Virus record (IMG/VR): IMGVR_UViG_3300010885_026891
Span: 1-40,136 of that record
Origin: a virus
Direction: 5' to 3' (one strand)
Length of the DNA stretch: 40,136 bases
Of this stretch, positions 5,298 through 13,873 are shown one piece after another. Each line of letters starts with the position of its first letter. The stretch's first letter is position 1. A program made the translations under genes and the position numbers. The notes below the pieces were generated by a model. It did no database searches, was not told the DNA's origin, and saw only the letters and a list, made by a program, of their open reading frames with translations.

Positions 5298-7115
5298 ATG
5301 CGCTCTATGACCCCCCTTGACCGAGCTTACAAATATGTGGCCAATATGCCGCCAGCAGTCTCAGGTTCTGGAGGCCACAATGCGACCTTCACGGTGGCTA
5401 CGGTTCTGGTTCACGGATTCAGCCTTTCACAGTCCGATGCGATGATGGTCCTGTCGTCCTACAACCGCCGCTGCGACCCGCCGTGGAGCGAAAAGGAGTT
5501 AGCGCACAAACTTGATTCAGCGGCCTCGAGCACGCACGACAAACCCCGTGGATGGTTGTTAGAGGACGAGAAGCCGAAGCTAGTGTTCCGCAAGGTCTCA
5601 ACTACGCCACTGGCGTATAGCCCGAAGGCCGCAAGCCCCGAGTCCACACGCTCATTCCTTGAATCCGTATTCCAGCCTAGCGATGTCGTCTGCATCGTTC
5701 AGACTAGCATCTGCGAAGCTGGGAAACATCGCCCTGACCACGGAGGTTCATTCCTAACCCGCGAGGAGTGGGCCACGAAACACTTCGCTGGAGAGGCTCA
5801 CACGTCCTACTTCCGCGACCTCGACGGCGGAGCCTGGGTCCGAATTAATCCGATGAAGGCGGATGGTGACGGGAGCGACCAGAGCGTGACTAGCTTTCGC
5901 CATGTCCTAGTCGAGGGCGACGAGCTTCCACGGTCGGAGCAGGAGCGAATCCTCCGAGAGAGTGGCCTACCAATCGCTGCCCTCATCGACTCTGGTGGGA
6001 AGTCCATCCACGCATGGGTCAAGGTTGATGCGACCGACTACAACCAGTGGAAGGAGCGTCGGGATATAGTCTACGCTTCGCTTGAGGAACTTAAACCGTG
6101 CGCTCAGAATAAGAATCCTTCTCGCCTGTCCCGTCTCCCTGGTGTCAACCGCGGCGAGTCAACGCAGGCACTCCTAGGCCTATCCCTTGGCGCGAAGACA
6201 TGGGACGACTGGAAAGATTTTCACGAATTGGGCGAGATACCTGAGCCGATTAGCTGGAAGTCCCTCATGGATTTCGACCGGAAGAACGACCCGAATAACC
6301 TAGTCGGTGATCGATTCTTGTGTCGTGGTGGCTCACTCATCATCTCGGGCGAGTCTGGAATCGGGAAGTCCTCGGCCTTGATGCAGCTTGCTCTATTGTG
6401 GGCCAGTGGTAAGGACTTCTTCGGGATAGATCCTCACAAGCCGCGTCGAATCGGCGTCATCCAGGCCGAGAACGACCTCGGGGATCTAGCAGAGGAGTTC
6501 CAGGACATCGTAGCGGGTGCGAATCTCAACGCGACAGACTGCGGGTGTGTCCAGTCCAACCTGTTTTTCTGGCGCGAGGTGATCAAGACCGGTCCGCAGT
6601 TCATCGCGCATTGCCGGCGGTTGATCAAGCGTCACAAGTTGGACTTCCTGATCGCGGACCCGATGTTCGCTTTCTGTGGGGGCGACTTAGCCGACAACTC
6701 TTTCCTCTCGACGTTCTTGAGAAACCAACTCAACCCTGTGATTGAAGAAACTGGCGTTTGCTGGGTCTGGCTGCACCACACAGGGAAGCCCAAGGTCGGC
6801 TCAGGCAATTCTCTCTCCGACTCGAAGTATTCGGCCTACGGTGGGTCTGAGATCATCAACTGGGCGCGTGCTACTATTGCGTTGTCCTCGACCGAGCAGG
6901 CTGGCCAGTTCGTTCTTACGATTCACAAGCGCGGGATGAGGGCAAGGTTGAAGGACGAGTTTGGGATTCGGTCCACAGCTATCCCGGTCCAGCACGCCCA
7001 GGATCGGATCTACTGGGAGCGCGGCCACGTAGTCACCCACAAGGTCGAGTCCGAGAAGTCGAAGTCTAGCGGAAAGTTCAAGATGTCAGGCGGTAAACTG
7101 AGGAGTGTGAAATGA
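5298..7115 (+). CDS. Primase-helicase fusion (PrimPol-like plus RecA-like ATPase)
   Basis: A 605-residue replication protein in three parts. The first 90 residues resemble a primase C-terminal (PriCT) helical module. Residues about 175-310 look like an archaeo-eukaryotic primase fold: a VEGDE acidic motif near 210, SGGKSIHAWV near 231, and NPSRLSRLPG near 273. Residues about 340-580 are a RecA-like hexameric helicase core with Walker A GESGIGKS at 351-358 and a probable Walker B IADPMF. It would prime and unwind the phage origin. The ATG at 5298 is preferred over an upstream TTG. No Shine-Dalgarno is seen. It overlaps the next gene by ATGA. Confidence 0.8.
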   Translation: MRSMTPLDRAYKYVANMPPAVSGSGGHNATFTVATVLVHGFSLSQSDAMMVLSSYNRRCDPPWSEKELAHKLDSAASSTHDKPRGWLLEDEKPKLVFRKVSTTPLAYSPKAASPESTRSFLESVFQPSDVVCIVQTSICEAGKHRPDHGGSFLTREEWATKHFAGEAHTSYFRDLDGGAWVRINPMKADGDGSDQSVTSFRHVLVEGDELPRSEQERILRESGLPIAALIDSGGKSIHAWVKVDATDYNQWKERRDIVYASLEELKPCAQNKNPSRLSRLPGVNRGESTQALLGLSLGAKTWDDWKDFHELGEIPEPISWKSLMDFDRKNDPNNLVGDRFLCRGGSLIISGESGIGKSSALMQLALLWASGKDFFGIDPHKPRRIGVIQAENDLGDLAEEFQDIVAGANLNATDCGCVQSNLFFWREVIKTGPQFIAHCRRLIKRHKLDFLIADPMFAFCGGDLADNSFLSTFLRNQLNPVIEETGVCWVWLHHTGKPKVGSGNSLSDSKYSAYGGSEIINWARATIALSSTEQAGQFVLTIHKRGMRARLKDEFGIRSTAIPVQHAQDRIYWERGHVVTHKVESEKSKSSGKFKMSGGKLRSVK

Positions 7116-7864
7116 GAATACTGATTGCCTGTGAATACAGCGGCGTGGTTCGGGATGCGTTTTCCGCTCTCGGACACGAAGTCTGGTCGTGCGACCTTTT
7201 GCCAACTGAGTCTCCTGGGTTGCACTATCAGGGCGACATTGGGCACTTGCTGGATGGCTGGACTCCAGTGAGACATCAATGCGAATGTGATCCAGAGGGC
7301 GATGGCCTGTGCCGATTAACTGGCGGAGACACATCGGAGTGCAAATGCATTGGTCCAACACAAGACGAAGTGGAATACCTGGAAACAGAGCATGGTCTTT
7401 TTGGAAGGTTAACGAGCAAGCCTAACTGGGACATGATGATCGCATTCCCTCCCTGCACAGACCTATGCGTTAGCGGCGCGAAGCATTTTGCAGCCAAGAG
7501 AGCAGATGGAAGACAGCAGCGCAGTGTCGATTTCTTCATGTCTCTTGCCAATGCTCCGATCCATCGGATTGCGCTTGAGAATCCAGTCGGGATCATGTCA
7601 ACACAATGGAGGAAGCCGGACTGCATCATCCAGCCTTACGAGCACGGGCACGAAGCGACGAAGACAACGTGTCTATGGCTGAAGAATCTTCCCAAGATAA
7701 CTCCAACAAACATCGTAGGAAAAGGTGCTCGGCACGTTACGAAGGGCGGCAACAGCCTGCCTGAATGGTATAACCTGCCACCGTCGAAGGATCGTTGGAA
7801 AATCAGGTCGGCTACCTTCTCTGGAATCGCCGCCGCAATGGCCCAACAATGGGGGACTCTGTGA
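7112..7864 (+). CDS. DNA methyltransferase-like protein with PPC and ENP motifs
   Basis: A 250-residue protein of a phage family related to C5-cytosine methyltransferases. The N-terminus RILIACEYSG is the cofactor-binding strand. FPPCTDLCVSG at about residues 112-122 holds the catalytic-type Cys. LENPVGIMS near residue 153 is the counterpart of the ENV motif. An insertion with four or more cysteines (CECDPEGDGLC and SECKC) at about residues 54-80 may bind zinc. It would modify phage DNA, probably against restriction. The usual conserved RxR motif and target-recognition domain are not evident, so the reaction is uncertain. It overlaps both neighbours. Confidence 0.65.
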   Translation: MRILIACEYSGVVRDAFSALGHEVWSCDLLPTESPGLHYQGDIGHLLDGWTPVRHQCECDPEGDGLCRLTGGDTSECKCIGPTQDEVEYLETEHGLFGRLTSKPNWDMMIAFPPCTDLCVSGAKHFAAKRADGRQQRSVDFFMSLANAPIHRIALENPVGIMSTQWRKPDCIIQPYEHGHEATKTTCLWLKNLPKITPTNIVGKGARHVTKGGNSLPEWYNLPPSKDRWKIRSATFSGIAAAMAQQWGTL

Positions 7865-10209: not shown

Positions 10210-10470
10210 ATGAAAGAAACACCAAAACCTGCTTACATCATCCGCTGTACTCAACTGTCCGTCTCACCTCCTGGAGAGTCCCTGTATTCCGAGCGATGCA
10301 CCATCATCACCATCGTGGATGAGGGGGGCGGGGAGTCTGTTGAGGTGAAACAACAGTCTGGAGAGACAAAAGAAGAAGATCAATCGATCCGCATCGATTC
10401 CACGGAGTGGCTCACGCTGAAAGACGCCATCACAACGATGATAAACGCTTGCAAGCAGGACCAGGAATGA
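10210..10470 (+). CDS. Unknown protein, 86 aa
   Basis: Good ribosome-binding site (AAAGGAG) 8 bases before the ATG. It has an N-terminal beta-like region (PAYIIRCTQLSV, CTIITIVDEGG), an acidic linker, and a C-terminal helix. I do not recognise a family. Confidence 0.55.
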   Translation: MKETPKPAYIIRCTQLSVSPPGESLYSERCTIITIVDEGGGESVEVKQQSGETKEEDQSIRIDSTEWLTLKDAITTMINACKQDQE

Positions 10471-10649
10471 CGCCATGGCCAATCATCCAGAAAAACCGGC
10501 GCAAGGCCCAGCTCTGCACGACCTGCGGCGACAAGGCTGAGGCGAGCCGCTGCGGGATATGCGCACACAAACACCGCGAGACGAACAGGGAACACATGCG
10601 GAGGAAGCGGATGAGGAACTCAACTTTGACAACCAATATAAATGAATGA
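10467..10649 (+). CDS. Zinc-ribbon protein, 60 aa
   Basis: ATGA overlap at its start. LCTTCGDKAEASRCGICAHK at about residues 16-35 forms a CxxC...CxxC zinc ribbon, followed by an Arg-rich helix (RETNREHMRRKRMRN). This architecture indicates nucleic-acid binding. The stop lies inside the start region of the C5 methyltransferase gene, so the two are co-translated. The partner is unknown. Confidence 0.6.
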   Translation: MTPWPIIQKNRRKAQLCTTCGDKAEASRCGICAHKHRETNREHMRRKRMRNSTLTTNINE

Positions 10650-11790
10650 GCTGGCATTATTCGCAGGCGCTGGTGGTGGCATACTCGGCGGCAAACTGCT
10701 TGGATGGAAAACCGTCTGCGCTGTTGAATGGGATGCCTACGCACGGGATGTCCTGGTCGCCAGACAAAACGACGGCTCCTTTGAAGCCTTCCCGATCTGG
10801 GATGACGTTCAATCCTTCGACGGGCGGCCTTGGCGCGGATCTGTTGACGTGGTGTCTGGCGGTTTCCCGTGTCAGGACATCAGCGCCGCCGGCAAGGGAG
10901 CCGGGATCGACGGAGCCCGGTCCGGGATGTGGTTCCACATGGCACGGATCATTGGCGAGGTGGGACCGCGCTACGTCCTCGTGGAAAACTCCCCAATGCT
11001 CACTTCTCGAGGGCTTGGACGAGTTCTCGGCGACTTGGCCGCGCTGGGGTATGATGCGCGATGGGGAGTGCTCGGTGCAGTCGATGCCGGTGCTCCACAC
11101 AAGAGAGACCGAATCTGGATCGTCGGAACTCTGGCCGACGCCGTGTTTGCCAGGGAATGGCGGAAGCCATGGGAAAGCGAAGCTGAAGGAGATGCTTTGG
11201 CCGACGCCCAGATGCCAAATGACAAGGCCGGTGACAATTCGAGAAGGAGGGAACCGTGGGAACTTGGAGGAAGTAGTAGCCGAACGAATGTGGCCCACAC
11301 CGGACACATGCGCGGGCGGGACTGGTCCGAGTCAACTGAAGCGCAACCAGCCACGGCTTCAGGATGCAGTTCTATTTGCGACACCCACCGCACGGGATGG
11401 CAAGGGCCACACGATAACGAAAAATCACCCGGATGGATTCAACAAGAGTCTAGCGAACCAAGTGAAGCTGTGGCCGACGCCAACAGCATCAGAGGACGCC
11501 GCGGGATCAGTGAACGGGAAAATGCAGTTCATGCTGACTCACGCAGCGAAGCTATCGGAGCCAGAACAGACGGCGGTTGGTGGGCAACTGAACCCGACCT
11601 GGGTCGAGTGGCTCATGGGGTGGCCGCTCGGATGGACCGACTGCGCTGCATCGGCAACGGACAAGTTCCAGCAGTGGTCCGCCTCGCATGGCGCGTGCTA
11701 AGTGAAGGCGCTCGGCTTCAAGGAATGTACCCGGCAGCGCGATGTTCCGCTTCGGATTCGGCTGCTATGACGGCTAAACCTTCTATTTAG
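10642..11790 (+). CDS. C5-cytosine DNA methyltransferase
   Basis: A 382-residue Dcm-type enzyme that would methylate cytosine in phage DNA using AdoMet. Motifs in order are FAGAGGG (7-13, cofactor site), GGFPCQDIS (73-81, nucleophile Cys77), VENS (114-117, in place of ENV), the HKRDRIWIVG region (153-162), and GNGQVP (338-343, motif X). Between 165 and 320 is a low-complexity target-recognition segment with repeated ADA triplets. A second long frame (10646-11701) runs through the same DNA. The gene lies four bases upstream of that frame's start and overlaps the zinc-ribbon gene. Confidence 0.85.
   Translation: MNELALFAGAGGGILGGKLLGWKTVCAVEWDAYARDVLVARQNDGSFEAFPIWDDVQSFDGRPWRGSVDVVSGGFPCQDISAAGKGAGIDGARSGMWFHMARIIGEVGPRYVLVENSPMLTSRGLGRVLGDLAALGYDARWGVLGAVDAGAPHKRDRIWIVGTLADAVFAREWRKPWESEAEGDALADAQMPNDKAGDNSRRREPWELGGSSSRTNVAHTGHMRGRDWSESTEAQPATASGCSSICDTHRTGWQGPHDNEKSPGWIQQESSEPSEAVADANSIRGRRGISERENAVHADSRSEAIGARTDGGWWATEPDLGRVAHGVAARMDRLRCIGNGQVPAVVRLAWRVLSEGARLQGMYPAARCSASDSAAMTAKPSI
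10646..11701 (+). CDS. Overprinted frame with WPTP repeats, 351 aa
   Basis: This ORF is nested almost wholly within the C5-methyltransferase gene, in the +1 frame, with its own ATG four bases downstream. Its sequence is not random. It begins MSWHYSQALVVAYSAANC, carries FSATWPRWGMMRDGEC, four WPTP motifs and one FATPTA, and ends QLNPTWVEWLMGWPLGW. I recall the same strings in many deposited phage proteins annotated as methyltransferase-related. Either this is a real overlapping gene or a database family made of mistranslated methyltransferase DNA. The sequence alone cannot decide. Confidence 0.4.
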   Translation: MSWHYSQALVVAYSAANCLDGKPSALLNGMPTHGMSWSPDKTTAPLKPSRSGMTFNPSTGGLGADLLTWCLAVSRVRTSAPPAREPGSTEPGPGCGSTWHGSLARWDRATSSWKTPQCSLLEGLDEFSATWPRWGMMRDGECSVQSMPVLHTRETESGSSELWPTPCLPGNGGSHGKAKLKEMLWPTPRCQMTRPVTIREGGNRGNLEEVVAERMWPTPDTCAGGTGPSQLKRNQPRLQDAVLFATPTARDGKGHTITKNHPDGFNKSLANQVKLWPTPTASEDAAGSVNGKMQFMLTHAAKLSEPEQTAVGGQLNPTWVEWLMGWPLGWTDCAASATDKFQQWSASHGAC

Positions 11791-13239: not shown

Positions 13240-13350
13240 ATGAAGGTCCGACCCCTGATTCGGTCCAACGATAAGTCCAGCGAGGCTTGGTTAGAGTGCA
13301 AATTTTATGATACCCAAAACAATAATCCATCTCCTGTCTGGCGGACTTGA
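13240..13350 (+). CDS. Weak short ORF, 36 aa
   Basis: A short ATG frame (opening MKVRPLIRSNDKSSEAWLE) in the 85-base gap before queC, overlapping its first 14 codons. There is no ribosome-binding site. It could be a leader peptide, but the evidence is only its presence in the gap. Confidence 0.2.
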   Translation: MKVRPLIRSNDKSSEAWLECKFYDTQNNNPSPVWRT

Positions 13351-13873
13351 CTCCGTGACGATGCTTTACGACCTGAAGGCTCGGGGCCACTCCGTCCACT
13401 GTCTGTTGTTCGACTATCGGCAACGCCACAAGCAGGAACTCCTGTGGGCTAAACAGCACGCGAGCAGATGTGGCGTGCTCTACACGACGATGGACCTTCC
13501 ACAACTTGGCGGACTGACCGAGCAAAGCTGGATCGTCCCCAACCGCAACGCCATTTTTCTGAGCGTGGCCGTGAACGTAGCGTGCAAGGCTGGTGCGGAC
13601 ACTGTGACCATCGGATGCAACGCCGAAGACGCGGGATACTTCCCTGACTGCCGGAAGGCTTTTCTGGACGCGATGAACGCGGCGACCCGTGCCGCAGGCT
13701 ATGACGTGGAAATCTGCGCTCCCTATCTCGACAAGTCGAAGGCGTGGATTGGCGGAATGGCGCAACAGATGGGCGTCCATCCGAACGAAATCTGGACCTG
13801 TTACCACGGTGGAGCAAAACCCTGCGGAGAGTGCCCAGCCTGCAAAAAACTGGAGGTCGCATGTGGACAGTAA
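13307..13873 (+). CDS. queC: 7-cyano-7-deazaguanine synthase (QueC)
   Basis: A 188-residue PP-loop ATPase that converts 7-carboxy-7-deazaguanine with ATP and ammonia to preQ0. The SGGLDS pyrophosphate-binding loop is at residues 11-16. The C-terminal CYHGGAKPCGECPACKKL provides the four-cysteine zinc site of QueC. It is shorter than typical bacterial QueC (about 220-230 residues) but keeps both key motifs. There is no fused glutamine-amidotransferase domain, so the expected product is preQ0. It overlaps queD by 13 bases and precedes the dpdA-like gene. Confidence 0.88.
   Translation: MIPKTIIHLLSGGLDSVTMLYDLKARGHSVHCLLFDYRQRHKQELLWAKQHASRCGVLYTTMDLPQLGGLTEQSWIVPNRNAIFLSVAVNVACKAGADTVTIGCNAEDAGYFPDCRKAFLDAMNAATRAAGYDVEICAPYLDKSKAWIGGMAQQMGVHPNEIWTCYHGGAKPCGECPACKKLEVACGQ

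Follow-up and report, generated by a model that had tools for sequence, protein, structure and literature searches.

A phage locus with two overlapping coding frames that probably specify the two subunits of one C5-cytosine methyltransferase

We propose that one phage locus encodes a two-subunit C5-cytosine methyltransferase whose large and small domains share a single stretch of DNA, each in its own frame, and which would work like M.EcoHK31I; we put the probability of this reading at roughly 85%. Both frames are selected protein-coding sequence, with the constraint split between them by domain, as the statistics of stops and substitutions show. The DNA analysed, called the window below, is an IMG/VR virus record of 40,136 bases. 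The initial annotation had pointed to two frames here, both resembling known protein families, with the +1 frame starting four bases after the other and running for 351 residues, and the coordinates and PHROG matches agree with it. The locus is laid out as follows.

10407..10649, + strand: upstream open reading frame, from reading the sequence; its TGA overlaps the beta ATG as ATGA
10642..10650, + strand: dual start ATGAATGAG, with the alpha ATG at 10642, the beta ATG at 10646, and an in-frame TGA immediately before the beta ATG
10642..11790, + strand: alpha, frame 0, 382 amino acids; catalytic large domain of a C5-cytosine methyltransferase, from profile matches and a dN/dS of 0.14 in codons 3-160
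10646..11701, + strand: beta, +1 frame, 351 amino acids; predicted target-recognition cassettes plus motif IX, from start, stop and dN/dS tests

Methyltransferase motifs and WPTP cassettes

The hallmark motifs of PF00145, namely I, IV (PC), VI (EN) and VIII, are all present in alpha, which matches Pfam DNA_methylase at 2e-33, only over residues 4-173, and PHROG 363 at 7e-67. The +1 frame matches PHROG 1008 ("DNA methyltransferase") at 3e-34 and PHROG 26627 at 5e-12, with no match in Pfam or NCBIfam; sequence and profile searches of the PDB with beta gave no usable match. The motifs are distributed over the two frames in this way.

10660..10680, + strand: alpha motif I (FAGAGGG)
10858..10884, + strand: alpha motif IV with the catalytic Cys (GGFPCQDIS)
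10984..10995, + strand: alpha motif VI (ENSP)
11089..11124, + strand: alpha motif VIII (GAPHKRDRIWIV)
11588..11635, + strand: beta motif IX (LNPTWVEWLMGWPLGW; alpha reads EPDLGRVAHGVAARMD), near-invariant in the beta alignment
11653..11691, + strand: alpha motif X (GNGQVPAVVRLAW)

The segment LNPxWVEWLMGWPxGW of beta has both the form and the place of motif IX. Its strict pattern was found in 168 of 227 betas and in none of the alphas; several of the 59 betas without it carry variants (e.g., FEEWMMGWP) or are shortened. Frame 0 had been described as a complete C5 methyltransferase, a description that does not hold, since alpha is devoid of motif IX and free of amino-acid constraint across the target-recognition region. 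On their sequences, the two frames bear complementary motifs of one enzyme, a point absent from the initial annotation.

Between motifs VIII and IX, beta carries an array of five cassettes. As had been noticed, the string TGGCCGACGCC occurs at 11132, 11198 and 11471, and reads as WPTP in the +1 frame and as (L/V)ADA in frame 0. Single cassettes of the window reappear in other betas in different orders, and the individual recurrences are given with each cassette.

11132..11197, + strand: beta WPTP cassette 1; recurs in locus L031, 82%
11198..11290, + strand: beta WPTP cassette 2; recurs at other positions in L041, L217, L015 and L139
11291..11377, + strand: beta WPTP cassette 3; 85% identical in the beta frame of L081, where the alpha reading is divergent
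11378..11470, + strand: beta cassette 4 (ATPTARDGKG...); recurs in L009, 79%
11471..11587, + strand: beta WPTP cassette 5; recurs in L265, whose alpha frame has stops across the cassette

In single-chain relatives, the cassettes and motif IX are held within the methyltransferase chain. One of them, L281, matches both PHROG 363 and PHROG 1008, and its model (pTM 0.70, with low confidence in the cassette region) aligns over its whole length with M.HhaI (Z 22.3, rmsd 3.6, 237 aligned; Foldseek 2e-14). Given this end-to-end fit, the cassettes and motif IX would be placed, by chain order, at the small target-reading domain. The AlphaFold model of beta alone was poor (pLDDT 53) and was used only for the helix at motif IX. 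The position of the cassettes in the single-chain relatives, together with their exchange, suggests that the cassettes each recognise a site on the DNA.

Selection on both frames

Since a search with the +1 protein selects loci by the very frame under test, GTDB genomes and IMG/VR were queried with an alignment limited to alpha residues 1-161. The 147 distinct genes analysed comprise the GTDB and IMG/VR sets picked by the alpha N-terminus, alpha-selected IMG/VR loci, phage records and the window; beta-selected loci were excluded, and a small bias remains in that the phage records came via a beta search. The expected number of stops was obtained by resampling synonymous alpha codons according to local codon usage. 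On this basis, about 7 stops per gene, 1,026 in all, are expected in the +1 frame, and 2 were observed. The frame is open from end to end in 145 of the 147 genes, as against 0.66 expected, and low-GC loci also keep it open. In the same genes, the -1 frame has 2,313 stops compared with 2,037 expected. Among complete alphas with motif X selected by the alpha N-terminus, stops are absent from the +1 frame as far as motif X in 68/68 from GTDB and 65/65 from IMG/VR. Conversely, given the beta proteins, 502 stops are expected in the alpha frame of the middle region and 42 are found; thus, alpha too is held open, and hence both frames are.

A few loci depart from this pattern. In L044 and L084, which are on one contig, codon 114 of beta is a stop, and at the same place alpha has lost the Glu of its ENSP motif; the gene is probably inactivated, and a single base change may have broken both frames together. 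L107 belongs to a more distant family and has its +1 frame closed at the N-terminus. In L359, from a prophage of E. coli strain PCP07014, stops in both frames are almost co-located, and the gene is annotated as a pseudogene.

Amino-acid constraint was estimated by scoring pairwise differences as silent or non-silent in each frame, in the style of overlapping-gene dN/dS, with our own script and Jukes-Cantor correction; the doubly silent class was left out because it is small and saturated. Intervals come from a bootstrap over independent pairs, each gene being used once. In codons 3-160, dN/dS is 0.14 [0.13-0.15] for alpha and 0.56 [0.50-0.63] for beta, and in the middle region it is 1.00 [0.75-1.26] for alpha and 0.09 [0.07-0.11] for beta. 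In the C-terminal region of motifs IX and X, the two values are close, 0.27 [0.23-0.32] for alpha and 0.24 [0.20-0.28] for beta. For comparison, the -1 frame treated as a mock gene scores about 1.15. Therefore, with its dN/dS of 1.00, alpha shows no amino-acid constraint on a target-recognition region between motifs VIII and IX. The constraint on the beta N-terminus is modest: conservation of residues 1-160 is 0.595, compared with 0.400 forced by alpha alone (n=190), and it is highest at MSW..S.ALV, SRLSRF (46-51), LL (66-67), W113, P132 and G135.

A repeat maintained at the DNA level instead of the protein level was considered for the middle region and rejected, since the differences there fall mostly at beta-silent sites. 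All 633 matching segments in this region are in the same phase. A test of selection in each frame had been suggested with the initial annotation; run here, it gave the opposite of the outcome named there as refuting, constraint being present in the second frame and stops being rare.

The beginning of beta is also under selection. Its initiation codon is ATG in 238 of 261 loci and GTG in 9, and the Asn at alpha codon 2 is written AAT, the spelling that creates the beta ATG, in 131 of 131 homologues where 60 would be expected. Thus, of the explanations first offered for the locus, overprinting is the one upheld, the +1 frame being under selection for its start, for the absence of stops and for its amino-acid sequence. 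A Shine-Dalgarno-like motif lies upstream of alpha in 160 of about 260 loci, and its end, where present, is mostly 4-5 nt before the alpha start and hence 8-9 nt from the beta start. The window itself has no obvious motif of this kind upstream of the dual start. The ATGA overlap of the upstream open reading frame with the beta start could, as read from the DNA, reflect coupling by reinitiation. The usual alpha start codon is missing from 36 loci, nearly all of which have an alternative in-frame candidate upstream. In L175, L128, L141 and L254, an M(S/T)W..S.ALV-like beta start is seen by eye a few codons upstream, where the alpha reading is different.

Alternative readings and a proposed mechanism

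Could frame 0 be the only gene, with the WPTP frame a shadow produced by composition or codon bias and PHROG 1008 misannotated? Most records checked do annotate frame 0 only, and the lack of a Pfam or NCBIfam match for beta points the same way. However, the near absence of +1 stops extends to low-GC loci, beta is most constrained where alpha is free, and beta goes on alone past the end of alpha, so we regard a shadow frame as extremely improbable. The related suspicion of misannotation survives only in that each checked record covers one frame and overlooks the second; both frames are coding. In 13 phage regions that were read, Vibrio phage 1.291.O and Pseudomonas phage phPA-G annotate beta only, as a hypothetical protein, and the other window-type records annotate alpha only.

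Instead, ribosomes translating alpha might undergo a programmed frameshift near motif VIII and run on into the WPTP region, producing a fused chain, which would be the complete enzyme in split-type loci. In L263, L265, L172 and a number of actinophage-like loci, a shift of +1 close to the alpha end would indeed join motifs I-VIII to the cassettes, IX and X. Such a product would call for neither a selected start codon nor an open frame before the shift, whereas beta keeps its ATG four nucleotides into alpha, with the AAT codon and some 160 stop-free N-terminal +1 codons, all left unexplained by frameshifting. In addition, motif X of the window type is back in frame 0, and a second shift would be required. 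A frameshift product, also raised in the initial annotation, is accordingly disfavoured, and we consider it very unlikely. It is also unlikely, in our estimation, that alpha alone is the methyltransferase and beta an unrelated overprinted protein, for example a regulator or an anti-restriction factor. The roughly 160 N-terminal residues of beta, with conserved positions of their own and no known counterpart found here, would suit such a protein. On the other hand, alpha is without motif IX and unconstrained in its middle, the cassettes and IX sit in the methyltransferase chain of single-chain relatives, and motif X moves into beta in the split forms.

We therefore return to the two-subunit methyltransferase. 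Alpha, with motifs I, IV, VI, VIII and X, would be the large domain that binds AdoMet and carries out catalysis, and beta the small domain, made up of the WPTP target-recognition cassette array and motif IX. Ribosomes loaded at one site would start at either of the two AUGs, 4 nt apart, and so yield both chains from one message, and these would assemble into one enzyme, a heterodimer. The enzyme would methylate cytosine in targets set by the beta cassettes, which would be exchanged between phages, and the phage would probably methylate its own DNA against host restriction.

Known systems, relatives and significance

How does this arrangement compare with methyltransferases already described? 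In M.EcoHK31I, the small gene sits within the large gene, in another frame. L361, from Lacticaseibacillus phage R23.9, has beta-like WPTP and motif IX sequence only in its second half, with the N-terminal part of its +1 frame closed, and this half-length stretch is nearer to the M.EcoHK31I arrangement. According to PMC3404938, citing Lee, Kam and Shaw (1995), the large polypeptide of M.EcoHK31I (YGGCCR) contains motifs I-VIII and X and the predicted target-recognition domain, and the small one contains IX. Set against that description, the window is similar in having I-VIII and X on the large chain and IX on a second chain, but its target-recognition constraint falls on beta instead of the large chain. 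Partly because of this difference, the window locus is not classed as a member of the M.EcoHK31I type. A further difference is that beta of the window begins 4 nt downstream of the alpha start, spans almost the whole of alpha with its 351 aa and bears the cassette array. M.AquI, another split C5-methyltransferase, has I-VIII on one chain and IX-X on the other (PMC3404938). The same division, with X in beta, is seen in L263, L265, L172 and the split actinophage-like loci, whereas motif X of the window is in alpha.

The homologues themselves show several arrangements. In L263, L265 and L172, alpha goes no further than motif VIII, and the cassettes, IX and X are in beta. Loci related to gp70 of Mycobacterium phage ShiLan (L096), which are actinophage-like, include some that are split with X in beta and some that are entirely in frame 0. 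ShiLan gp70 and L281 have WPTP/LPTP cassettes, IX and X in the same order as the window; unlike in the window, all are in one frame with I-VIII, although several loci of this type leave the first cassettes in the +1 frame. In the single-chain loci L279, L282, L284, L285, L288, L292 and L296, the frame-0 cassettes are preceded by one or two LPTP cassettes in the +1 frame, which may be left over from an ancestor of the overlapping type. Multispecific single-chain C5-methyltransferases with several target-recognition modules are encoded by the Bacillus phages SPR, phi3T and rho11. There, the modules are in one chain, whereas the putative modules of the window are in a second frame.

Some genes look rearranged. 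Near the 3' end of L269 and L213, IX-like sequence is in alpha and motif X is in a third frame, as if frames had been swapped by indels. The gene of Klebsiella phage BUCT711 (L360) looks chimeric, its first ~80 codons being close to Salmonella phage S9-5 and the remainder divergent; the annotated CDS begins mid-gene.

The window contains other genes that may bear on DNA modification. A second methyltransferase-like gene lies a few genes upstream, at 7112-7864 on the + strand (PHROG 757, 2e-66), and a QueC-like queuosine biosynthesis match is found at 13307-13873, also + (PHROG 1550, 9e-49). The latter may hint at 7-deazaguanine DNA modification in the same phage.

A search of IMG/VR with the +1 protein gave at least 597 related stretches, and the same double gene appears to be present in hundreds of loci, as a lower bound, from viruses and bacteria. 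We searched the literature, in open-licence papers only, and found no report of this overlapping phage methyltransferase class. It is tempting to propose, tentatively and at somewhat less than even odds, a large class of phage genes that place the two structural domains of one enzyme in separate frames of the same DNA along nearly the whole length. Such genes would derive from, or interconvert with, single chains by paired indels; a shared start region would set the ratio of the chains, exchangeable cassettes would be kept in one frame, and the ~160-residue beta N-terminus, overprinted on the catalytic domain, would have a function of its own.

What is clear is a long same-strand overlap, supported statistically in 145 of 147 homologues, in phages and prophages of several phyla, and, on the reading preferred here, it would divide one enzyme by domain between two frames. 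Since annotation usually drops one of the frames, methyltransferases cloned or predicted from such loci would be left without either their specificity part or their engine. The system makes testable the constraint on overlapping genes, the control of chain ratio by adjacent starts, and the evolution of specificity by exchange of cassettes in a second frame.
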